A stretch of 35,107 bases of DNA. It comes from a virus. Below, in pieces: positions 2,269 through 23,685 of this stretch. The DNA is taken from positions 1 through 35,107 of IMG/VR virus record IMGVR_UViG_3300047371_000482; one strand, given 5' to 3'. Numbering within the stretch: the stretch's first letter is position 1; the number at the start of each line of letters is the position of its first letter. The position numbers and the translations under genes are program-made. A model generated the notes under the pieces. That model did not search any database, was not told the DNA's origin, and saw nothing but the letters and a program-made list of their open reading frames with translations.

Positions 2269-2773
2269 ATTGCTTCTTGGTTAATGTTTTAATGTTAGCC
2301 TTTTTAACCAGGTAAAACGGGGTAAAACCTGAGTGAGAGACATATCCTTTTTCCTGTAAGTGCTTCAAAGTGGTGTAGCCGTGAATAACTGCTTCCTGGT
2401 CCTGGATCTGTTTTCCCAGGTTGACCAGGGGAGTGCTGACAAAAGCATAGTAGTCAGGTTGGTTTCGCAGGGTTGTCGCTTTAACATTGATTGCAAACGA
2501 GTCCTTATCACTCGTTTTCACATCAAATGTTTTCCCGTTATTTAATCGAAAGTCATACCATTTTGAACTGGTTCCCGTGTGGGTCCTGGTTTCCCAGGTA
2601 AAGTCAGGGTAAAAGTTAAAAAACTTGGCAAATGCTAATTCTCCAATGCACCCCTGCAAACTGCTCTGTATGGTAATACTCGGTTTTTTACTAATCCGAT
2701 TATTGGAAGCACGGAGGGTACTTATGATAATCAGGTGTTCAATCTCGTTCGCATCAATGGTTATCTTGTGCAT
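2261..2773 (-). CDS. PD-(D/E)XK-fold nuclease of the packaging module
   Basis: 170 residues. A PD-(D/E)XK active-site pattern can be read: Glu45 in GELAFAKFF, Asp74 in WYDFRLNNG, and the D-x-K pair Asp84-Val-Lys86 in TFDVKTS, preceded and followed by predicted strands. This fold is shared by restriction enzymes, resolvases and homing-type nucleases. The gene is sandwiched between TerL and the HTH gene: its start codon overlaps the TerL stop and its end overlaps the next start. This suggests a DNA-processing job in packaging or head maturation, or cutting of host DNA. The substrate cannot be told from sequence. Confidence 0.65.
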   Translation of the reverse strand: MHKITIDANEIEHLIIISTLRASNNRISKKPSITIQSSLQGCIGELAFAKFFNFYPDFTWETRTHTGTSSKWYDFRLNNGKTFDVKTSDKDSFAINVKATTLRNQPDYYAFVSTPLVNLGKQIQDQEAVIHGYTTLKHLQEKGYVSHSGFTPFYLVKKANIKTLTKKQYA

Positions 2774-4491
2774 CAGTATCCCCCTGGTTCAGTAATCCGT
2801 AATTCAGAGTCTTCCAGGTAAGAATAATTACCTATTGCAACATATCGAAGGCAGTCAGGTGGATCCTTACAGACCCCTTTCATCCCGTCATCAACTTTGT
2901 AGTTCATGCAACAGAACAGGGTGTTTCCAACCTGGTCAGAAAAAAACAACCTGGGCTTATTATTCAGGTCAATTGGTTTGCTTTTGTCATAGGACAAAAG
3001 GGAATTAATTGCCTGCAACCCGTCTTCAATCGGTAACCCTTCGGCAGGGTAAACATTTATATTGTGGTCCTGTAAGTCACTAATGATATTACTGGTCCCC
3101 TCGCTTTTAGCGTAGGTAGCACTACCCATCCTGGGGTCAATGATTATATCCACATCATCCGTGCAACCCAGTATTTCATCATCCGATATGCCCTTGAGCA
3201 TATCTCTGATAATCTTGGCATAATCTTCTATCCCGTTGCCATTGGGCTTAGAAGCATCCCCTGGAACACCCTTCTCACCCCTGTCAAGATCTGCCCATTC
3301 TCCAACATCTACACCAGGCCATTCCTTTATTACCCAGTGGACCCCAAAAACATCGATGGCAACTAGGAGCATAAACCAGGACTTGCTACCTGCTGGGTCA
3401 ATACTAAGAACATACTGGCAGGGATTATTCTTCTTATCCTTTATGCAGGGTATATCTTGGTGCCTTTTTACTACCTTATCGTCCAGGTTGACGAAAGTGG
3501 TGTTACTCGGTTTGGTTGGTAATCCGTAGGCCCTGGTTAAAATTTCATCCCGTCTTGCCCCTTCCAACTGCATTTTCATGGCAGGCCAACCCCCGTAAGG
3601 GTTGTCTGCCGTATGAAAATATAATATCTTGGCATTCTGTCGTACAGGTTGTTGTACAATAGGGACCCGTTCACCAGGTAATAACCCTGCTTCCTTATCT
3701 TCCAGGGTAACTGCACCTGACAAAAAAGTGTTCACCACATTGGTCCACCCTGAAATTGTCGTAAAAGTACTGATCACCCTGGCAGGGATCCCCGTTTTAG
3801 GATCTGCCCTGGATAAACACCTATACCTAGCAGTGTTTAAGAAATTTTGAGGAACTTCTTCGTCAAACCATACCCCAATATTATGAGTACCAGGCTTAAC
3901 CTCCTCTTTGCACCCCACTTCACCCCCTTCAATAGTCTCAATATTTTGTGACCAGTTACGGAATACGCAGGTGCTTCTATTAGGTAAGATGAAACTACTG
4001 GAGGTATACCCGTTTTTCTGCGAATAGGAGACATAATGAACCCTGCTTCTGCCCAGGTTCTTAAACTCAGCAGGTAGGTACTTATGCACCACTGCCTGTT
4101 GATTCGCTATGCTATTCTGACTGGTAGCAGTAAAGCACCATATAACACTGCCAGGGTTTGCTACCAGGGACTGCACTACCCTCTTCGCAATTACCTCGGT
4201 TTTCCCCGAACGATTGCCTCCAAGCAGTAACAATTCTGCCTTTTCCTCCAGTATAGCATCCACCTTTTTCCAGTGTGGCAATTCTGTGCCATACCTAAAA
4301 GGGTCTTCCCGTTCCCTATCAATAGCACCTTCTCTCCTCTCCCAATATTCCAATAACCTTTCAGCACCCATTTGGATCTGTTCCTCCTGGGATGGAATTT
4401 TTAATATTGGATGTGGGGTCCAGTCTAGTGCCATGTAGCATATTCTAACAAGGTTCCAACCCAACGCATAGGGTTGTCCAGTATTGTCCAT
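2773..4491 (-). CDS. terL: Terminase large subunit (packaging ATPase/nuclease)
   Basis: 572 residues. The ATPase half has a Walker A loop GGNRSGKT (91-98) and a Walker B GVWFDEE (206-212). The C-terminal RNase H-like nuclease half has its first acidic residue in YVLSIDPAGS (Asp365) and a second in DIIIDPRMG (Asp452). Together these drive DNA into the procapsid and cut the concatemer. The ATG at 4491 gives the longest frame. An internal ATG at 4434 (MALDWTPHP) is an equally good start, because neither has a clear Shine-Dalgarno and the first 19 residues look unlike a terminase N-terminus. It is the first gene of the leftward packaging operon, downstream of the divergent control region 4492-4893. 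Confidence 0.93.
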   Translation of the reverse strand: MDNTGQPYALGWNLVRICYMALDWTPHPILKIPSQEEQIQMGAERLLEYWERREGAIDREREDPFRYGTELPHWKKVDAILEEKAELLLLGGNRSGKTEVIAKRVVQSLVANPGSVIWCFTATSQNSIANQQAVVHKYLPAEFKNLGRSRVHYVSYSQKNGYTSSSFILPNRSTCVFRNWSQNIETIEGGEVGCKEEVKPGTHNIGVWFDEEVPQNFLNTARYRCLSRADPKTGIPARVISTFTTISGWTNVVNTFLSGAVTLEDKEAGLLPGERVPIVQQPVRQNAKILYFHTADNPYGGWPAMKMQLEGARRDEILTRAYGLPTKPSNTTFVNLDDKVVKRHQDIPCIKDKKNNPCQYVLSIDPAGSKSWFMLLVAIDVFGVHWVIKEWPGVDVGEWADLDRGEKGVPGDASKPNGNGIEDYAKIIRDMLKGISDDEILGCTDDVDIIIDPRMGSATYAKSEGTSNIISDLQDHNINVYPAEGLPIEDGLQAINSLLSYDKSKPIDLNNKPRLFFSDQVGNTLFCCMNYKVDDGMKGVCKDPPDCLRYVAIGNYSYLEDSELRITEPGGY

Positions 4492-12885: not shown

Positions 12886-13197
12886 TTAATGAAAATTACT
12901 AAATGGTTCACCCCCTGCATATGAAACCCATGCACTACGGGCATCAGTGTTAACCATATGCAGTATACCTTTTTTTGTATTGGGAAGATTTATTTCCTGA
13001 ATCATTGATTCATCAAACTTCAGTGGTTTATCAGGACAAGGGGAATCCCCATGTCTTTCTTTCCAATCTTCAATCATCCATTTGTTATTTTCTTTGATGA
13101 ATTTTGTAACAAGTTTTTTTGCATCAGTTTTACTGCCAGTAAAGTGGCACAATCTATCGTCACAATGTCCATATACTTTTACCAGGTATAATTTCAT
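12886..13197 (-). CDS. Hypothetical protein coupled to the integrase
   Basis: 103 residues from the ATG at 13197, which shares a base with the integrase stop (TAATG) and is preceded by AAAGGAAAG as Shine-Dalgarno; the longer frame from 13230 lies in the integrase C-terminus. Start MKLYLVKVYGHCDDRLCHFT, then a segment resembling phage proteins of the KxLxxKFIKEN type. It is compact and of mixed charge, with no membrane segment. Tight coupling implies co-expression with integration. It has lower C/G-word bias than the integrase. No family recognised. Confidence 0.6.
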   Translation of the reverse strand: MKLYLVKVYGHCDDRLCHFTGSKTDAKKLVTKFIKENNKWMIEDWKERHGDSPCPDKPLKFDESMIQEINLPNTKKGILHMVNTDARSAWVSYAGGEPFSNFH

Positions 13198-14507
13198 TAC
13201 TTTCCTTTCTTTGTGGGTTTGATAGACCAATACTCTTTCACCATATCGGATGGTGAAAGTTTCTTGGTCCCTTTGATTAGTGAGCGATAATGTTGGTCAA
13301 TAACTGCAGGTGAATTACCTGCCCAATTGGCAACCAGGTCCTTATTGTTGTCATTTGCTTCCAGGTAATAACTAATGGCAGTGTGCCGTAGCACATCTGA
13401 CACATACTTGGGCCTATCCTGATCATCGGATACTTTAGCTAACTCAGGATCCAGGTGCTTAAAATGCTGACCCCTGACCCTGTACCCTGCCCTTGCCCTG
13501 ACAAGGTCCTTAATACCTCTCCACTTAGCAAAGGATGATTCTATAACAGGCCCTGATTCCTTTGCAAAAGGTTTTACCCAGGCAACACAATTCTGTGGCA
13601 GTTTAATAACCCTCCTGGAAGTAACCTTGCCCACTGCATAACTAATTACCAGGGTGCTTTCCTTTTTTCTCCAGGTAAAGTCTTCCCACATGATTTGCTT
13701 CTTACCATCTTTGGGACGAATTTCATGGGGCCTTAAACCTGCGAACAGGGACAGAGCAAAGTAAGGTATTGCTTCAGCTTTGTCGGCAAGCCCTGATGCA
13801 ATTGTCATTATCTCCCTGACCTTGTCCAGGTCCAGTGCAACAATTTCACCCCTGTTAATACCAGGTGCCTTTACAGACTTGTCAACGGGTGACTTAGATA
13901 AAAACTTTCTACCCTCGCAGAAGTTAAAGAATGACTTGAGAGTGGTTAACTCATTCGTCCTAGTAGTAACTGATACTTCCCTGCCTGCAAAAGGACCATA
14001 GTCACCCTCCTGGTCACTAATCCATTGGCGAATATTTTCAGTGGTAATAGCATCCACACTTTTCTCAGGAAACCAATTAGCAAACCTGGTCAAGCGTTGC
14101 TCCATATTTTTTATATGCACTTCACTTCTTTTCAGGGTAACCATTTCCTGGATCCACTCCTCAGTTGCTTCAGGTATTGTCCTGACTGATTCTGCGTTAG
14201 TATATACTTTACTTGCCCAGGTAACAACTTGAGCCAGGGACCAGTCAGATGGAAAATTAGGATTAGACTCCATAATTTTCATGGCAGAATGTGCATCTGC
14301 TTCCTGGGCTTTAGTAAGCAGGGTTTCACGAATCTCACCCCCTGCAATGGCATTGCTAACCTTTGCAGTTAGTTTCTCAGATTCTAATTTTGCAGATTGT
14401 TCATCAGGGAATTGTTTCCGTACCCGTCCTAAAACGGGGACGGAACCCTGGATTGACCAATACCCTGCGATAACACGGGGTTGTAACTTTTGTTGCCAGG
14501 TAGTCAT
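13197..14507 (-). CDS. int: Tyrosine site-specific integrase
   Basis: 436 residues. Order: an N-terminal arm-binding-type region (1-about 110), a SAM-like core-binding domain (about 115-205, with RFANWF and ENIRQWISD), and the catalytic domain (about 225-430). The catalytic residues are visible: Arg259 in LFAGLRPHEIR, Arg374-His375 in DVLRHTAISYY, Trp395 in ANWAGNS (where many integrases have His), and the nucleophile Tyr407 in DQHYRSL. It integrates the phage, most likely at a tRNA-Thr gene, because a truncated tRNA lies 0.7 kb upstream. Start and stop both overlap neighbours as TAATG, so three genes are coupled. Confidence 0.92.
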   Translation of the reverse strand: MTTWQQKLQPRVIAGYWSIQGSVPVLGRVRKQFPDEQSAKLESEKLTAKVSNAIAGGEIRETLLTKAQEADAHSAMKIMESNPNFPSDWSLAQVVTWASKVYTNAESVRTIPEATEEWIQEMVTLKRSEVHIKNMEQRLTRFANWFPEKSVDAITTENIRQWISDQEGDYGPFAGREVSVTTRTNELTTLKSFFNFCEGRKFLSKSPVDKSVKAPGINRGEIVALDLDKVREIMTIASGLADKAEAIPYFALSLFAGLRPHEIRPKDGKKQIMWEDFTWRKKESTLVISYAVGKVTSRRVIKLPQNCVAWVKPFAKESGPVIESSFAKWRGIKDLVRARAGYRVRGQHFKHLDPELAKVSDDQDRPKYVSDVLRHTAISYYLEANDNNKDLVANWAGNSPAVIDQHYRSLIKGTKKLSPSDMVKEYWSIKPTKKGK

Positions 14508-14695: not shown

Positions 14696-14708
14696 AGTTT
14701 TTTTAGTT

Positions 14709-14718
14709 GGGGGGGGGG
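14709..14718. repeat. G10 homopolymer in a 27-bp gene gap
   Basis: Ten consecutive G (C on the transcribed-sense minus strand) lie between the stop at 14723 and the start at 14695. Runs of this length are prone to slippage and could vary expression of the integrase operon. Confidence 0.6.
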
Positions 14719-15022: not shown

Positions 15023-15178
15023 AGTTTTTTTGGTATCGTGGGTGAATATGTTATTAATAAAGCAAATCAAGTTGTCAGATAGATTGTCAGATAATACTGA
15101 CCATCTGTCAAGCAAACTGACAGACTTTTTTAAAAAAAGTTTTTCAGTTTTACCTAAGTGCTTGTTTTATAACTAGTT
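15023..15178 (-). promoter_or_regulatory. Control region of the integration operon
   Basis: A non-coding A/T-rich stretch with four TGTCAG/CTGACAG-type sites (see 15073-15123) and a palindrome ACTTTTTT-A-AAAAAAGT (15124-15140). TTGATT followed by A/T-rich sequence lies on the minus strand about 50 bases upstream of the ATG at 15022, but the -10 match is weak. Repeats next to this possible promoter suggest repression or activation of int. Confidence 0.5.
15073..15123. repeat. TGTCAG/CTGACAG operator-like array
   Basis: TGTCAG at 15073-15078 and 15085-15090 (12 bases apart), CTGTCA at 15105-15110, CTGACAG at 15117-15123 (again 12 apart, opposite orientation). The first two lie in longer direct repeats, TTGTCAGATA. 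The same word occurs three times in the 4492-4893 control region. Confidence 0.55.
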
Positions 15179-15222
15179 GCCACCTTAGCTCAGCTGGTAG
15201 AGCACCTCACTTGTAAACAAGT
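15179..15222 (+). other. Truncated tRNA-Thr(UGU) 5' half; candidate attP core
   Basis: The 5' half of a tRNA is intact: acceptor strand GCCACCT, D-stem GCTC/GAGC with AGCTGGTA loop, anticodon-stem 5' strand CCTCA, and loop CTTGTAA containing TGT (15212-15214). The 3' strand should be TGAGG but the sequence is ACAAG, and no T-arm or AGGTGGC acceptor complement follows. So identity to a tRNA gene ends at about 15217. The break coincides with a palindrome ACTTGT-AA-ACAAGT (15209-15222). Tyrosine integrases often use the anticodon-loop region as crossover site (known). Near int, this is the likely attP. Confidence 0.75.
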
Positions 15223-15248: not shown

Positions 15249-15286
15249 CTAGTGTTTATCAGGGTTTCAAGTGGACACTAGTGGAC
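15249..15286. repeat. Arm-type-like repeats beside attP
   Basis: An inverted pair CTAGTGT (15249-15255) and ACACTAG (15275-15281), and a direct pair AGTGGAC (15270-15276, 15280-15286) spaced ten bases. Short repeats flanking the core are typical of integrase arm sites or Xis sites; the assignment is inferred. Confidence 0.4.
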
Positions 15287-15301
15287 TATAGCAGAAGGGA
15301 T

Positions 15302-15319: not shown

Positions 15320-15544
15320 ACGCAAAGCACTGGTATCAGGAAAAAAATCACATTTACTTCTGATTGTTTCCAGGTTGTCATTTTCCTCCACATTATCCTC
15401 TTCAGTTAGCCTTACCAATTCTTCAACTTCTTCAACACTTGCCCTGGTTGGATCAAAGAAAAAAGTAAGGTCATTCCAGGGCCTTTCCTCGTAACCTGGT
15501 ATATCAATTGTTTCGTCTGTAAGGATTATTTTATGGAGTTTCAT
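15305..15544 (-). CDS. Small acidic protein, last gene of late operon
   Basis: 79 residues, strongly acidic (for example ASVEEVEELVRLTEEDNVEE). The start overlaps the stop of the giant virion gene (ATGA), so it is translated by coupling. The stop lies in a CTGTCAG hairpin close to attP. It could be a chaperone or regulator partner of the giant protein, suggested only by coupling. No family recognised. Confidence 0.6.
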   Translation of the reverse strand: MKLHKIILTDETIDIPGYEERPWNDLTFFFDPTRASVEEVEELVRLTEEDNVEENDNLETIRSKCDFFPDTSALRLSEN

Positions 15545-18500
15545 TTTAAGAATTGGGTAAGTTGTGGAACACCCCGTTTATGCCCTCTAAGCATAGCACC
15601 TTGTATATTAGATTCTGACTGATCATACAATGGTTTTTTACTACTTTCCTTTAGGAATTTATCAATGCCTTTAAACCTTTCAGTCCGTTGTTTTATGTCA
15701 GGGGTAACACTAAAGTCTTCAGGATCCTGTTTAGTAGTTCCATACTTCTTAATTGTTTCGCCCTTCAATTTAGCAACATCCTGTTTCCATAACTTAGCAT
15801 GAGTCTTTGCAAAGTCAGGTGCCATTTGCACTGCATTCTTAGGTTTATCAAACATGAAAAAATCTGCATCACCTGGACCAAGCATTAACCAATCGTAAGA
15901 CGGGTGTGCCCTGAATTTCTTGTTAGCAAGTAATTTCTTTCTAGCTAACTTTTCATTGTCAGTCATTCTAGCAAATTCTTTGGGGTCATCACCAAAATAA
16001 ACACCAAACACCCTCTTCTTATTATTTAGGTTATGCTTAGATAATTGAACAACCCCCACAACATCCCCTGCCTTAGCCCCATGATAATCCATTTCAGACT
16101 TTAGCAATTTTCTAATGTCAGGAATAAATGGCATCCTGGCAGAATTTTCATCCCTGGGTAAAAAGTAACTGGTTATTTCTGCCCTGGCTTTAAAAGATGC
16201 TTCTGTAAATGCTTTAGTAAAATCTCTTGCAAAGGATTTTACTTCCTTATCATTCCACCAGTCAGTTTTGCCATAATCTTTTTTTATGTTAGCAAGTATC
16301 TTATTTGCTTCGTCAACATTACCCCGTGTAAGTTTGGTCTTATACTGAGTCATGTCTTTCAGGAAGGCATTTTCCTGAGCATTAGGTTTACTTTTGGTAA
16401 ACCTCTTCCTCAGTATCCGTAAAATATTGGCAGTAACTTCCCGTTCCAGGACAGACATATTTTTCCTGTTATCCTGGAAAGACCCAAGCACCCTGGAAAA
16501 CATATCTTTATTTGAACGATGGGTTTCCTTTTCCATTATCTGAATCAGTGCATGACCATCATCAGTAAGTTTAACCCGTTCAATCATACCTTTAATTGTA
16601 GACCACTTTAGGTTTGCCCATTGGGGTCTAAAATCAACCCCGTCAATTGTGACAATTACATCATTGCTCTTCAGGAATGCGTGTAAGGGTCCACCCATGC
16701 GAACACCATCAGTATCATGCCTGTCTGCTTCAACCATTGTCACAAACTTATCCTGTAGCCCTGTAGCATCCTTGAACACTACATCAATAATGTTCTTATT
16801 CTTCTTATACTGCACACTCTTGTCCCCTGGCAGGTTGAGTAAGGGCATGAACCTAATGTCATCACTATCAGTAAACCTGTCCTTCAGGGGAACATCAGAT
16901 TCAATGCGTTTTATGTTTTCAGGGTTAGTGGTTGCCCTGGTAATTGATTCACTATCGGAATCCACAAACCTAAATATTTCATAACCCTCATTCATTAAGT
17001 CAGATAAAATATCTGTCTCAGGGTCATCAAATATGGCCCACCCGTCATCATCTTTATCATTCCATTTGTACGGGTTTTTCTTGTCAGTCCTAGCCTGTAT
17101 AAATTCTGCATGGCCATAGTCATCACGATCTTTACCAAACATATCAAAGTGAGGTTTCCACCCCCCTCGCTTATTGAACAAGTCAATTGCTTTTTTCCTA
17201 TGCTCAGGGTTTCCTTCAAAATCAAAAACCTTTTTATCCTTTAAAAAATATGCATGGTTCTCAAGGCCATCTCCTGCAAACTTATCTGAGAATGATTTAT
17301 TTTCTGAAAAATAAATCATGCCTGCCCGTGCATCATCCAGGTCAAAAGTGTTCCCCTCAATTGTTTGATCGGACTTTCTTAGATAACCCCCATGATAAAC
17401 AGGTGTGGTATTATAACCCTTCTTACGGGCCTGCTCAATAACTTCCCTGGGTATTGTCTTTTGTTTCCCGTTAACATCATAGTATTTGCCTTTAGGCAAT
17501 GCAGGCATAAACCTATCCCCCTGGTTAAGCATCCCTGCTTCCACTTCATTCAATTCATTTAGTTCCCTGATCATACCATTCCTTTTAGCCTGGTAAAGGG
17601 ACCCCCTGGTGCTTTCCACCTGGGGGTTACTATCGGATCCATATTCTAACAATTCCGTGCTTACCTGGGCAATCCTGTTACTAATCTCCTGGGCAGGTAC
17701 ACCCTTGTATTTAATCCGTCTTGCCATGCTATTGCTCTGTACCACTTCAGGAGGGGAACTAGGCCCTCTAGGGGCCTCATCCCCTAATGTAGGCATATAT
17801 AAAGTTTGTTCACCCAGGGCCTGCTTGGTTGGCAGTTCCATCATCCAGGCACCATTACTTTCACTAATATCTATATCATATGCATCAGAGGAAGAACTTC
17901 CCTCAAATGGTTTTTGCTCTATATCAACCTTAACCTTCTCAGGTTTACCAACCCCTAACTTCTTAGCTAACTTGGTTGCTACCTTTACAACTTCCTTATC
18001 ATAAAAGTTGGGTAGTGCAGGGTCTGACATATCCAAGTCTTTACCCTCGTATTTTATTGTTTTCCGAAAGTTCTCATGCTTGTGGTCCCAAGAAGGTTCT
18101 TCCAGTATTTTATCTGCCATTTGCTTCCCAATAACTTCGTCTAGGCCCTTGCCAACAAACCCTTCATGGTCTGCATTTATCACCCTACCCTTACTATCAA
18201 CCTGTAATTGTATGTCCCCCTGTTCCTTGGTGTTTAAAAATATTTCCCTTATGCCAATTATATTCCCTGGTTCCATTGTAATATCATCCAGGGTCCTGGT
18301 TAAACTATACCTGTCATTATGCACTTTTCCGTCTGCCCAGGCAATGTGAGTTTTACCATCATTGATAGCATCCATCATTGCTTTCTTGAGCAACAGAGCA
18401 GGCCAGTTCTTTTCAAATGCAACATCTGAAACAGGGGCAGGTTTAGGGTTATTCTCCAGGAATTTAGTCTTTTGTTCAGGAGTCATTTTCTCCCATTTCT

Positions 18501-21500
18501 TCCACCTTCTTAATGCCTGCAACCAGTCAGATTGCATTTCCTCCAGGAACCTTGTGTCCTTCCCGTCAATAGTCCTGTCTGTCCGTCTGATATGACCAAG
18601 GACCTTATCACTAGGCCAGTGTGCGTTTTTGAAGGTAATGGGCAAAGGGGTTGTTGTTACTTCACCTAATTCCTCAAAATTATTTACTTCTAAATAATTA
18701 GAATCTGAAACAACTTCTTCTATTATTTTGTATTTATCTTTAGGCCCCCTAAACCGATATGCTCTGTTACTATCATCATCACCATAATAATATTCTTCTA
18801 AATATTCTTGTTTGAAATAAATTGCATCGTCAGAACTTATAACTCTTTCCAAGTCATAATAAATATCACCATAAAAACTATTTGTAATCTGAATAGATGC
18901 ACCTACCTCCTGACTTGTAACTGGTTTTTCCTCAAACCTTCCACCCCCCTCAAATTCCACCAGGGTTTCATTGTAGTTGGTTCTTTCGCCAGGGGTGACC
19001 AGGGTGTTCCTGTTGTACTTGGTTCTGTTGCTCTGTTGAAATGTTACCTCAGTGTGCCCCATTTCCTTAAAGTCAATTAGGTCCTGGATAGTATTAACCC
19101 TGTTTTGAAATGCAACATCGTCAGCAACCAGTCTAAGGTTAGGGTTTTGCCTATTAAATTCGTTATCCCTTCTTAACAATTCACTTCTGAAATTTGAATC
19201 ATCACCCCGTTTGATTATTTCTTCAGATGAAGGATAATCTTTACCATATATGTTTAACAATTCATCAATTGGTAAAGTCTGTGCAGGGTCTGCCAGGTCA
19301 TACGAATCTAACTTTAAATGATTCTCAGCGACAAAGTCTTCAATGTCTGTCTTAGTGACTGACTTTTTTCCCTCAAGGAAACCAGTCAGTCCTATATCGT
19401 CAGCATATGCCTTTGCCCCTGCTACCTTACCAATAGCACTATTAAATTGCTCACCTGAAAACTTCTCCTGGGTAATACCAGGTAATACCTGGTCAACAAT
19501 GTTGTCCTTTAGCCCTAGGTTGGCAGGTAAGTATTTTCTAAACCTGGCATTCTTATACTCATCCCTGTTATGTGCCTTGTCCAGTGCATCCCGTAATTGA
19601 CTTTCAGTAAAACCAAATGCTTCATGGTTATTCATGGCAATATCACCATCCAAATATCTGTTGCCTGGGGATATTAAAACATCTGCTATTTTACTAATTC
19701 TGTCAGGATCCTTCGGACTAATACCAAAAGTTTTCCACCAGGACCTAACCTGTGTGGGTTCTATTGTTTCACTTTTTAGATTGTCTGTTTTTGTACCCTC
19801 AAAGTCCATTTCCAACTGGGGCATAAAGCGTTGGTCCTTAGTCGGCAATTGATTGTCTATAATTTTACGGATCCGTATATCCTGTCCACCTCCTGGAAAC
19901 TCAATTGTGCCAATTCTGTCAATCCGTCTAGAACGGATGACAGACATTTCCTCTGCTTTCTTTTTTCCTAACTTTGTAAGTACAGGGTTTCGCTCAACAG
20001 ACCCACTGCCAGTGTAACCCATAAAAGCATTTAACCAATCCCGTTGGGCCTCGCTTATCCCACTGCCATCATCTCCGTTCTTAATGCCCTTCCCTTGGTT
20101 GGAATGATAAGTATCGTACAACTTACTTATGTTCCTCCTGGTTTCAGCAATACTATTGCCCCCAAATGCCTGGGTAATTTCGGCCAACCTGTTCTTACCC
20201 TTCATTAATGAAGTAATATTTTTATCCAGTGCATCCAGGGAAATGGTCCTGACAAATATGTTCCCGTCCTTCGATACTGCCAACCCATACAGATACATAT
20301 TTCTGTACCCACCTCGCAGGGAACGATAAAACTTACCCCCGTGTTTCATGGCAGAATAATAAAACATAATTGCCTGGTTGCCATGTCCACCAACGGGAAC
20401 TTCACCATTGCTCATTCGTCTGCCAACATTACTTATTTGCCTAAGAAAATTAATCTGAGATGCATTGTATCCCTGTAGAGAATCAATCACTGCATCAGAA
20501 AGGAAAAACCCTTCCCCTGAGTCATTATCATTCATTACCACATGACCTGTTGGCAGATCATCCTGGTTTTTTATAGCATCAATAACATCATTTGCCATTT
20601 GCCCCTGAACCTTGTCCACCTGGCTTTTCGTCATTAACTTGGGTTTTCCACCCATGCCATAAACTATATTACCTTCTGCATCAGTTTGAAAAATTCCACC
20701 CGTGTTAAATATTTCCATTAACTCAGGGTTAGCAATTTGTTCAGCAGGGGTTATGATCAAATCATTATCTGCTTCCCCTGCCTGCTCGATAGGATATTTC
20801 TCTGCAATTTCTTCAGGTGATAATCTTTTACTATCTTTTTCGTAGTCCTTAATTATCCCGTTCAGTTCTTTACTTTCCTTCAACCCTGAGAATAGCTTGG
20901 TTCCTTCAACATCAGTAAATAAACCCATGTTCAACCCTGCCTTTTTAAGGAAAGGTTTACCACTCATTGCATGAAACAATGAACGCATTAATTTACCCTG
21001 GGTATCCTTTGGTTTTTGAGTGAGTATGTGGTCAGCAACATACTCAGCAAAAACTTCATCTGCTATCCATTCCCTATTTTTAGAATAAGCATCCCTGGTT
21101 GTTTCATCTATCCCACTGGCACCTTCTAATCGTTTAAGATATTGCTCCCGTAATTTAGAAAAGTGTTCACTGGTTCCGTATCGTTTTACACCATTGTAGT
21201 CTTCTATTAACCATCCATTTTCTCCTACCCCTGTGAATATACCTGGTTTGTTTTTCTCAACGGATCCAAACATTATTTCATGTATTAAAGGACTTAATCC
21301 GTGTGACTTTATATGGTGCCCTATCTCATGGGCCAGGACCTGAACTAATGGTTGGTCAGCATTTATATTAATCTCAATCTTACTCTGACCATCTGCCAGG
21401 GTATGCCTGCCATTCCATCCTGATTCATTTAATGGTTTATCAACAATTACATACTGAGCATCAGGGAAAGACATTTGTGCATTTGCTAACCCTGCCTGGT

Positions 21501-23685
21501 TTTCAAATGATAACCTGTCGTACAATTTGCCCTGGTCTTCTGATAAATTCTTTCTGTGGTTTGAAACATCACCCCGTTGTTTAACCCTGCCAATTGCAAC
21601 GGATCCATGTCTCATTAATTCTCCAGTTGCAACACCCAGGCCAATAAAGGGGAGAGATGCTCCTAAAGCACTCGCCCCTCCCTCTGCTCCATCCATTCCA
21701 TAACCAAATGCAACAGGGACTGCAGACCCTGTTGTTGCAGATAACCCTGTCCTGGCAACAAAGGACCCAACTTTATCAAGTCCCGTATCAACTGCAAAAC
21801 GGGCAACTGAGCGTTCAGCTTTACTGACACCCTGCTTGCCCATAAACTCACCAGTGTCACCCCGTTTAAATATATTACCCATAGCACCAAGGGTCTTCGA
21901 GTATGAAGCACCATCGGTTCTATCAATAATTATTTCACTAAACTTAGGGTTCTTTGAGTTAAGTTGCTGAAAGGTTTCAAATGTATTCTTACTGGCATTA
22001 TTTGCCACCCAATGTTCACCCAGGTGCCTCAATGTTGTTCCTGTTTTTTGGAGAATCTCAGGCCCTAAAAGAAGTGCGATACCTTGAAGTATATTAGAGG
22101 TGTTCACATCAAAGTTGTCACTACCTGCCACATAACCAACTGCACCTGTGGTACCAAGGCCCAATATACCATTAAGTATTTTATTTGCTTCAGCAGGGTC
22201 TGAAACTTTGCCAACCTTCATTATAGCATCAACCATTAGTTCCTTGGGTGCTTTCCTAACATATTCAAAGGTTCTGCCTAGCAGGTCCAGTGTTGCTCCC
22301 GTTCCCTTTGTGGCACTACCTATACCTGCTTGTAGGAATCCAGGTTGAGAATAGTCATTAGTTACTTCCAGGACTTTCTGCCCTGCCTGTTCAGCAACCT
22401 GTTTACTTTCTTCAAGTGCTTTTTTTATACCTTCAGTTTCTTTGGCAATAGCAGTTTTTTGTGACTGGGTTATACCCTCCACATTATTTAAACCCTCTAG
22501 TGTTCTTAACTTATCCTGGTTCTTTATTACTGCTTTGTTGGCAACTAGAAGTTCTTCCTGGAGAACTTCCATTTGCCCCTTCATCACAAACCTTTTTACC
22601 CCTGTTACCCCTGCCTGACTCAGTGCAGAGGTTCCCATTGTTAAAACCTCAACAGGAATGTCAGGAGCAAAAGAATAAACCATTGCCATGTTAGGGTCAG
22701 GTTTTATCAGTTCATTTGCCAGGGCAACCTCTGCCTGCTTATCACCTACCAACCTGGCAACATTGGAAGCACCATCTTCCATTGACTCACTAATGCGAAA
22801 ATTTTCTTTTATGTAATCAAGTTCAATATGCTTATCATTCTCAGTCATCCCCTTATCAAACTGAACACCTGACTCACCCTGGTTGGCCCATTTTGAAAAC
22901 ATATTAGAAAGCATAGAATATCCACCTGCCCACTCGTCTATACCTTTGTAAAAATTAACATCCTCCTGGATTCGGCCCAGTTCCCCTGCCCGTCTTAATA
23001 CTTCATTAAGCAGTTTCGGATCCGATTGGTCCAGGCCCTCCATCATCATCATTTGACCTGCGAAACCTTTTGCCCTTTTTGTGTTTATTCCGTCAGGGTT
23101 TTTTCTGTAAAAATCAAAAAACTTTAAAGCAGTTTTATCTATTTTTTGCCTGTCTGCTTTTGGTAGTGTACCAAATTCAAACTGACTCCCCTGCTTGGCA
23201 TAAACTAATTCATTTTTTCTGCCTGATGACGGGTTGGTAAAAAACTCAAATGTCTGTTCAAACATACCAAGTTCTTCATCTTCAGGCACATTCTTCCTTC
23301 CATTGGCAAAACCTGCTTTAGGCAGAGTTTGCCCCATTCTTGCCATTCCAATATCTTTTAGAATTTCATTGTAAGAAGAATTGGCAGAATTAATTTTAGC
23401 AATATCTACTCCACCCTTCACAACCCCTTTTGCCATGTCTTTAACCAGGTCAATAAGTTCCATGTCCCCTTCGTCTTCAAAGTAACCACTATCTAGTGCA
23501 TCAAGCACTAGTTTGTTGTTACTATTATCAGGGTTTTCTCTGTCCCATAACTTTATAAAGTTACTGGGTGGAACCTGTGTTTTAATAATGTCAAAAACAT
23601 CCCGTTTGGTTGGTTGGGCACCTGGTGAAACTTCAAACTCAAAGTCAACACCTAGAGCATCATTTTGAAACCTGTATGAGTCCAT
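15541..23685 (-). CDS. Giant multidomain virion-associated protein (polyvalent, probably ejected)
   Basis: 2714 residues. Regions in order: an unassigned N-terminus; a possible coiled-coil (about 368-440); Gly-rich hydrophobic segments (about 500-550 and 640-700); a zinc-protease motif LAHEIGHH (HExxH at 786-790) with acidic helices downstream (Glu872 region, ADEVFAEYVADH); a SVTKTDIEDFVAENH helper motif typical of large phage polyvalent proteins; a domain with HWPSDKVLGHIRRTDR and FLEEMQSDWLQ (about 1688-1830); an ADP-ribosyltransferase-like domain beginning VYHGG (2096) with MIYFSENKSF (about 2095-2270); and a C-terminal region with RHDTDGVRMGGPLHAF (about 2318). RFMP occurs at 1286, 2058 and 2278. 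An A/T-rich in-frame insert spans about 1596-1676. Such proteins are thought to enter the host with the DNA and modify it (family knowledge plus inference). Confidence 0.8.
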   Translation of the reverse strand: MDSYRFQNDALGVDFEFEVSPGAQPTKRDVFDIIKTQVPPSNFIKLWDRENPDNSNNKLVLDALDSGYFEDEGDMELIDLVKDMAKGVVKGGVDIAKINSANSSYNEILKDIGMARMGQTLPKAGFANGRKNVPEDEELGMFEQTFEFFTNPSSGRKNELVYAKQGSQFEFGTLPKADRQKIDKTALKFFDFYRKNPDGINTKRAKGFAGQMMMMEGLDQSDPKLLNEVLRRAGELGRIQEDVNFYKGIDEWAGGYSMLSNMFSKWANQGESGVQFDKGMTENDKHIELDYIKENFRISESMEDGASNVARLVGDKQAEVALANELIKPDPNMAMVYSFAPDIPVEVLTMGTSALSQAGVTGVKRFVMKGQMEVLQEELLVANKAVIKNQDKLRTLEGLNNVEGITQSQKTAIAKETEGIKKALEESKQVAEQAGQKVLEVTNDYSQPGFLQAGIGSATKGTGATLDLLGRTFEYVRKAPKELMVDAIMKVGKVSDPAEANKILNGILGLGTTGAVGYVAGSDNFDVNTSNILQGIALLLGPEILQKTGTTLRHLGEHWVANNASKNTFETFQQLNSKNPKFSEIIIDRTDGASYSKTLGAMGNIFKRGDTGEFMGKQGVSKAERSVARFAVDTGLDKVGSFVARTGLSATTGSAVPVAFGYGMDGAEGGASALGASLPFIGLGVATGELMRHGSVAIGRVKQRGDVSNHRKNLSEDQGKLYDRLSFENQAGLANAQMSFPDAQYVIVDKPLNESGWNGRHTLADGQSKIEININADQPLVQVLAHEIGHHIKSHGLSPLIHEIMFGSVEKNKPGIFTGVGENGWLIEDYNGVKRYGTSEHFSKLREQYLKRLEGASGIDETTRDAYSKNREWIADEVFAEYVADHILTQKPKDTQGKLMRSLFHAMSGKPFLKKAGLNMGLFTDVEGTKLFSGLKESKELNGIIKDYEKDSKRLSPEEIAEKYPIEQAGEADNDLIITPAEQIANPELMEIFNTGGIFQTDAEGNIVYGMGGKPKLMTKSQVDKVQGQMANDVIDAIKNQDDLPTGHVVMNDNDSGEGFFLSDAVIDSLQGYNASQINFLRQISNVGRRMSNGEVPVGGHGNQAIMFYYSAMKHGGKFYRSLRGGYRNMYLYGLAVSKDGNIFVRTISLDALDKNITSLMKGKNRLAEITQAFGGNSIAETRRNISKLYDTYHSNQGKGIKNGDDGSGISEAQRDWLNAFMGYTGSGSVERNPVLTKLGKKKAEEMSVIRSRRIDRIGTIEFPGGGQDIRIRKIIDNQLPTKDQRFMPQLEMDFEGTKTDNLKSETIEPTQVRSWWKTFGISPKDPDRISKIADVLISPGNRYLDGDIAMNNHEAFGFTESQLRDALDKAHNRDEYKNARFRKYLPANLGLKDNIVDQVLPGITQEKFSGEQFNSAIGKVAGAKAYADDIGLTGFLEGKKSVTKTDIEDFVAENHLKLDSYDLADPAQTLPIDELLNIYGKDYPSSEEIIKRGDDSNFRSELLRRDNEFNRQNPNLRLVADDVAFQNRVNTIQDLIDFKEMGHTEVTFQQSNRTKYNRNTLVTPGERTNYNETLVEFEGGGRFEEKPVTSQEVGASIQITNSFYGDIYYDLERVISSDDAIYFKQEYLEEYYYGDDDSNRAYRFRGPKDKYKIIEEVVSDSNYLEVNNFEELGEVTTTPLPITFKNAHWPSDKVLGHIRRTDRTIDGKDTRFLEEMQSDWLQALRRWKKWEKMTPEQKTKFLENNPKPAPVSDVAFEKNWPALLLKKAMMDAINDGKTHIAWADGKVHNDRYSLTRTLDDITMEPGNIIGIREIFLNTKEQGDIQLQVDSKGRVINADHEGFVGKGLDEVIGKQMADKILEEPSWDHKHENFRKTIKYEGKDLDMSDPALPNFYDKEVVKVATKLAKKLGVGKPEKVKVDIEQKPFEGSSSSDAYDIDISESNGAWMMELPTKQALGEQTLYMPTLGDEAPRGPSSPPEVVQSNSMARRIKYKGVPAQEISNRIAQVSTELLEYGSDSNPQVESTRGSLYQAKRNGMIRELNELNEVEAGMLNQGDRFMPALPKGKYYDVNGKQKTIPREVIEQARKKGYNTTPVYHGGYLRKSDQTIEGNTFDLDDARAGMIYFSENKSFSDKFAGDGLENHAYFLKDKKVFDFEGNPEHRKKAIDLFNKRGGWKPHFDMFGKDRDDYGHAEFIQARTDKKNPYKWNDKDDDGWAIFDDPETDILSDLMNEGYEIFRFVDSDSESITRATTNPENIKRIESDVPLKDRFTDSDDIRFMPLLNLPGDKSVQYKKNKNIIDVVFKDATGLQDKFVTMVEADRHDTDGVRMGGPLHAFLKSNDVIVTIDGVDFRPQWANLKWSTIKGMIERVKLTDDGHALIQIMEKETHRSNKDMFSRVLGSFQDNRKNMSVLEREVTANILRILRKRFTKSKPNAQENAFLKDMTQYKTKLTRGNVDEANKILANIKKDYGKTDWWNDKEVKSFARDFTKAFTEASFKARAEITSYFLPRDENSARMPFIPDIRKLLKSEMDYHGAKAGDVVGVVQLSKHNLNNKKRVFGVYFGDDPKEFARMTDNEKLARKKLLANKKFRAHPSYDWLMLGPGDADFFMFDKPKNAVQMAPDFAKTHAKLWKQDVAKLKGETIKKYGTTKQDPEDFSVTPDIKQRTERFKGIDKFLKESSKKPLYDQSESNIQGAMLRGHKRGVPQLTQFLK

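Follow-up and report, generated by a model that had tools for sequence, protein, structure and literature searches.

In classical integration at a tRNA gene, the element has an integrase, arm-type sites and a core that lies within the tRNA gene and carries its 3' half, and the host promoter is kept. Integration by way of the 5' half is known but rare. Among the islands in Islander, 159 of 3,919 have 5' tDNA fragments (PMC4383910); these islands use a tyrosine integrase, lie between the tDNA and its 5' fragment, and supply the 5' part of the rebuilt tRNA. Archaeal elements of the pTN3 type in tRNA-Leu are described as cutting the tRNA off from its promoter, an outcome said to be seldom met in bacteria (PMC5495485, PMC8371274), and Fionnbharth-like phages cut the host tRNA gene upon integration (PMC10865867). 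The locus considered here lies in the window, by which we mean the whole stretch of 35,107 bases that was analysed, a metagenomic virus record (IMGVR_UViG_3300047371_000482). It resembles the Islander 5'-fragment islands in its tyrosine integrase and, as its attP geometry predicts and integrated relatives show, would do so in the other two respects listed above, but differs from them in belonging to a phage set of marine Opitutales in which the half is swapped by isotype between closely related phages. With pTN3 it shares a core in the 5' half (41 bp in pTN3) and a rebuilt tRNA that would lose its original promoter, whereas in pTN3/SSV-type elements attP lies inside the integrase gene, which integration splits; the window core, beginning at 15179, is 672 bp outside an integrase gene (13197-14507) that would remain intact. 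From the Fionnbharth-like phages the window is set apart by its long 5' half and the lack of any encoded tRNA, and it departs from the classical type in carrying the opposite half, with the predicted loss of the host promoter to the rebuilt gene. Isotype-swapped modules, the group-wide use of this geometry in Opitutales phages, and an element flank homologous to that of the host (in genome G208, below) were not found in the literature searched. The relevant features of the window are as follows.

13197 to 14507, minus strand: tyrosine integrase of 436 amino acids, transcribed away from the core (PHROG phrog_1 integrase, E=1.2e-19)
15072 to 15124, no strand assigned: P-arm repeats, TTGTCAGATA twice plus TCTGTCA...TGACAGA, probable arm-type integrase sites
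15125 to 15178, plus strand: prospective 5' flank of the rebuilt tRNA-Thr, A+T-rich, with TATAAC at 15168 to 15173 and no significant promoter
15179 to 15216, plus strand: very probable attP core, by sequence match the exact 5' half (nucleotides 1 to 38) of the host tRNA-Thr(UGU) gene
15209 to 15222, no strand assigned: palindrome ACTTGT-AA-ACAAGT, its left half tRNA and its right half phage
15210 to 15216, plus strand: CTTGTAA, the 7-nucleotide anticodon loop and probable overlap region for strand exchange
15270 to 15287, no strand assigned: P'-arm direct repeats AGTGGACA/AGTGGACT (AGTGGAC repeats), seen in the sequence and kept in the close relative L079
15301 to 15320, no strand assigned: P'-arm inverted repeat TCTGTCAG-TTTT-CTGACAGA, a motif shared with the P arm

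The 38-mer GCCACCTTAGCTCAGCTGGTAGAGCACCTCACTTGTAA occurs once in the window, on the plus strand, and comprises the acceptor 5' strand, the D arm, the 5' strand of the anticodon stem and the entire 7-nucleotide anticodon loop, which bears out the first-pass annotation on the tRNA parts present in the phage and on a 5' half of tRNA-Thr(UGU) at attP. An integrase gene and repeat arms adjoin it. None of 100 shuffles matched it, even with 3 mismatches allowed. The search for identity to bacterial tRNA-Thr(UGU) genes that the annotation had proposed, run as a scan of 84,980 species genomes (one genome per species), returned an exact match (38/38 nucleotides) in 3, all of them Opitutales/Opitutia; at these loci (L015-L017) nucleotides 1 to 38 of tRNA-Thr(UGU) are the window 38-mer, and the full tRNA is present in each of the three genomes. 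Identity between window and host breaks right after the loop CTTGTAA, where the window continues with ACAAG and the host with TGAGG; the right core arm of the window is thus unlike that of attB, which counts against the preferred explanation. No complete tRNA was detected by ARAGORN in the whole window, and a motif scan of the window for T-loops and D-stems gave no further convincing tRNA fragment; the 3' half that is the classical attP cargo is not there, the window having nucleotides 1 to 38 only.

The catalytic Arg, Arg and Tyr of the window integrase are aligned with those of other integrases. Its box II reads DVLRH; the His three residues before Arg (HxxR) is Asp in the aligned integrases and Asn in one. 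A run of about ten G lies at 14708-14718, between two small ORFs upstream of the integrase gene. The repeats flanking the core are largely conserved in L079; TTGGACACA repeats in G208 compare with the P'-arm direct repeats, and the counterpart of the arm inverted repeat in G245 is TGGAACA...TGTTCCA, in both arms. The pair TCTGTCA...TGACAGA, together with CTTTTTT, is also terminator-like on the plus strand. A palindrome at the end of the core had been pointed out together with a stop of tRNA identity inside the anticodon stem; the palindrome is present, but identity ends with the 7-nucleotide loop, ahead of the 3' stem strand. As a functional part the palindrome was rejected, since the tRNA dictates its left half and attPs do not conserve it: the counterpart in L079 is imperfect (CCTTTT-AA-AGAAGG), and other attPs, which lack it, have TGCGT, TGCGA, TAAGG, GGCGA or TGAGG after the loop. 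Elsewhere in the window, a single ORF of 2,714 amino acids (15541-23685) has a metalloprotease-like HEIGHH motif and is possibly a giant virion protein, and 50,697 phage records contain just a single match to the large terminase (2773-4491), in Phage C75C1 (31.6%), which leaves this phage group all but unrepresented there.

Eight other viral contigs carry exactly the same tRNA-Thr(UGU) 5' half, each ending at CTTGTAA. Their integrases are only about 21-25% identical to that of the window, and therefore two distant integrase groups share the tRNA-Thr(UGU) site. A further locus, L050, has the sister-host allele of the half (GTTGGTAGAGCGCC) and keeps TGAGG after the loop. The mirror scan of viral contigs for the 3' half gave 16 contigs, all with full tRNAs, and no contig with the 3' half only. 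Identity between L079 and the window is 84-93% over the longest aligned stretches, and lower over others, and the two integrases are 68% identical; at the place of the window core L079 carries GGGTCGGTAGCTCAATCGGTAGAGCAGTGGCCTTTTAA, the 5' half of tRNA-Lys(UUU), of which most genomes of the family contain an exact 31-mer, and the phage sequence on both sides of the half is conserved. The close relationship of window and L079 suggests that the half can be exchanged as a module, in step with the tRNA gene that is targeted. The match to the tRNA stops at the anticodon loop, or no more than a few bases away, in the window, L079, the L012-type attPs, G208 and G245 alike. Scanning viral contigs for the pattern of the window integrase confirmed no relative, and no phage attP for tRNA-Thr(CGU) was found. 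In another relative of the window (L082:8744-10169), with an integrase 53% identical and inverted relative to that of the window, a full tRNA-Lys(CUU) takes the place of the attP.

These data very probably make 15179-15216 the attP core of a temperate phage of marine Opitutales that supplies the 5' half of the tRNA on integration. The integrase would recombine this core with the host tRNA-Thr(UGU) gene, strand exchange running most likely across the 7-bp anticodon loop, with presumptive exact cut sites. With the 5' half on attP, integration would strand the promoter and 5' half of the host at the far end, where phage DNA (15217 onwards) follows them. At the integrase-side end, a 5' half from the phage would complete the 3' half of the host gene to an intact tRNA, flanked on its 5' side by phage DNA. 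The window phage itself may be expected to follow the geometry of two integrated relatives, in G245 and G208, which provide both ends and whose integrases are only about 27-32% identical to that of the window over the aligned part.

In G245, a genome of the same family, a prophage with genes related to those of the window splits tRNA-Phe, its ends sitting on separate contigs. C10 has a window-type integrase gene and, next to it, an intact tRNA-Phe with the 5' end pointing to that gene; C22 reads, in order, two host genes (by visual inspection FabF-like and nitroreductase-like), a host-type promoter, the tRNA-Phe 5' half, and phage genes homologous to window genes. A query made of the joined host flanks matches both contigs with a 39-nucleotide overlap from tRNA nucleotide 1, and matches G253 end to end, which marks the latter as the uninterrupted sister site and the overlap as a 39-nucleotide direct repeat in G245; homology between G245 and G249 likewise breaks off at tRNA nucleotide 39. 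The two G245 flanks compared with each other showed no homology above shuffles. The G208 element, about 7.96 kb long, is bounded on one side by a 5' half (GCCGAGA...) and on the other by a complete tRNA-Thr(CGU) (GCCGGGA...TCTCGGC). Here the 3' strand of the host, TCTCGGC, pairs fully with the stranded half at attL (GCCGAGA) and forms a G5-U68 wobble only with the rebuilt half at attR (GCCGGGA); therefore the rebuilt 5' half derives from the element and the crossover lay 3' of nucleotide 5, mapping to tRNA nucleotides 6-38. The uninterrupted site gave no contiguous match, only its right side being found, in G061. The anticipated rebuilding of a host tRNA with a phage-supplied 5' half is accordingly seen in these relatives, with a chimaeric acceptor stem in G208, and both elements are flanked by an intact tRNA and, upstream, by the displaced host 5' fragment; the window shows the attP geometry of the same arrangement. 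As for prophages with attL and attR, the two relatives have them, but no lysogen of the window phage was found by a search for duplicated halves in 373 genomes of the order, of which 16 match the half, with one copy in each. This absence, the split of the G245 prophage ends over two contigs and the low integrase identity of the two relatives weigh against the preferred explanation.

Across seven host loci with window-type integrases, the start of the integrase gene faces the 5' end of the tRNA; for the five beyond G245 and G208 the far ends were not found, and in the integrase tree, where one side of a branch consists of the window-type rows, the label 5' given to these five refers to orientation only. 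A search for a duplicated core in G269 (C21) found only the intact tRNA. The tandem or stray tRNA-Lys halves in G113, G300 and G201 were dropped as lysogens, as no integrase was recognised in the adjacent ORFs read. L133:6463-8782 comprises a tRNA-Lys(UUU) 5' half with a host-like promoter, a glutaminase-like gene and, 2.25 kb from the half, a full tRNA-Lys preceded by a promoter similar to that of the half; similar stray halves occur in G300 (L129), G201 (L134) and G193 (L136). In L135, near 16778-16808 (G241:C95) and located at a contig end, a tRNA-Lys(UUU) preceded by tRNA-Arg(UCU) has a 5' acceptor strand, CGAGATG, that is unpaired with its own 3' strand.

Given the same att site, there is a little less than an even chance that a dedicated phage promoter, either evolved or acquired together with the 5' half, allows the prophage to drive tRNA-Thr. 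The element flank in G208 points this way through its homology with the flank on the host side of attL, the host promoter region (score 43, against at most 32 in 500 shuffles), with the BLAST match running on into it, as does G245, whose single detected intact tRNA-Phe stands behind phage DNA; the assembly may be incomplete, and if it is complete, transcription from the prophage side must occur there. Further, L012-type phages have TTGCAT 41-52 nucleotides upstream, and 5 of 11 host tRNA-Thr genes have it at 44-46. The phage promoter suggested by the first-pass annotation is supported only in part, by G208 and G245, and is at odds with the lack of a sigma-70-like signal: on 75-nucleotide flanks, an approximate E. 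coli weight matrix from general knowledge, which may miss other promoter types but works on host flanks, gave a strong excess on 20 host-side flanks (1e-10) and none over shuffles on 15 element-side flanks (Fisher p=0.99). The window flank scanned at background, its best site falling below the mean of its shuffles, and phage and host tRNA-Thr(UGU) flanks were otherwise not alignable above shuffles. It is also plausible, at a probability appreciable but short of one half, that there is no dedicated promoter and that read-through or weak transcription serves the rebuilt gene, lysogeny lowering the supply of tRNA-Thr(UGU), as would fit an element side devoid of promoter signal near the tRNA start. 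However, this reading has to contend with an integrase gene that runs away from the tRNA, with the terminator-like hairpin just upstream in the window, and with the expectation that tRNA-Phe is essential, G245 keeping one intact copy as far as detected.

The half is very improbable as a stand-alone gene for a small RNA, a decoy or tRNA fragment, in place of an att core. It is exactly a tRNA 5' half, and tRNA 5' halves are a form known among regulatory tRNA fragments; however, it adjoins the integrase gene between arm repeats, its isotype differs between the window and L079, and integrated relatives have this structure at their ends, so that G245 and G208 contradict a small RNA gene. More improbable still is a chance match, host contamination or an assembly chimaera, which a metagenomic virus record might invite, but which is opposed by the result of the shuffles, the recurrence of the half in eight further viral contigs, and the conserved phage sequence on both of its sides in L079. 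The attP reading with a phage-supplied 5' half stands as preferred.

Other arrangements exist at Opitutales tRNA genes. G288 and G265 share one prophage, most of which is 99% identical between them, with an integrase 43-45% identical to that of L012 and of another group than that of the window. The 15-bp core ATCTCATTCGTAATG is all that it has in common with the host tRNA-Thr(CGU). The host gene stays split, and the prophage brings a tRNA-Thr(CGU) of its own, different in sequence and overlapping the 3' end of the integrase gene (L067:5500-6776, L074:12450-12600; L068, L075). From its sequence, this layout looks like the published tRNA-dependent lysogeny of the Fionnbharth-like phages (PMC10865867). 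At tRNA-Phe, L069 and L070 have the classical layout, with the element on the 3' side. This shows three layouts at host tRNA genes: the 5' half brought by the element, a whole replacement tRNA, and integration on the 3' side.

Most phages that target tRNA genes keep the host promoter; the window-type integrases seem to reverse this as a group, the host promoter being lost to the rebuilt tRNA, and who transcribes an essential tRNA in a lysogen thereby becomes a directly testable question. On present evidence it is unlikely that the Opitutales phages and elements of this clade make a habit of capturing or evolving a promoter along with the 5' half and so gaining control over transcription of a host tRNA that is essential and single-copy. 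Were it true, the translation capacity of the lysogen would be under prophage control.
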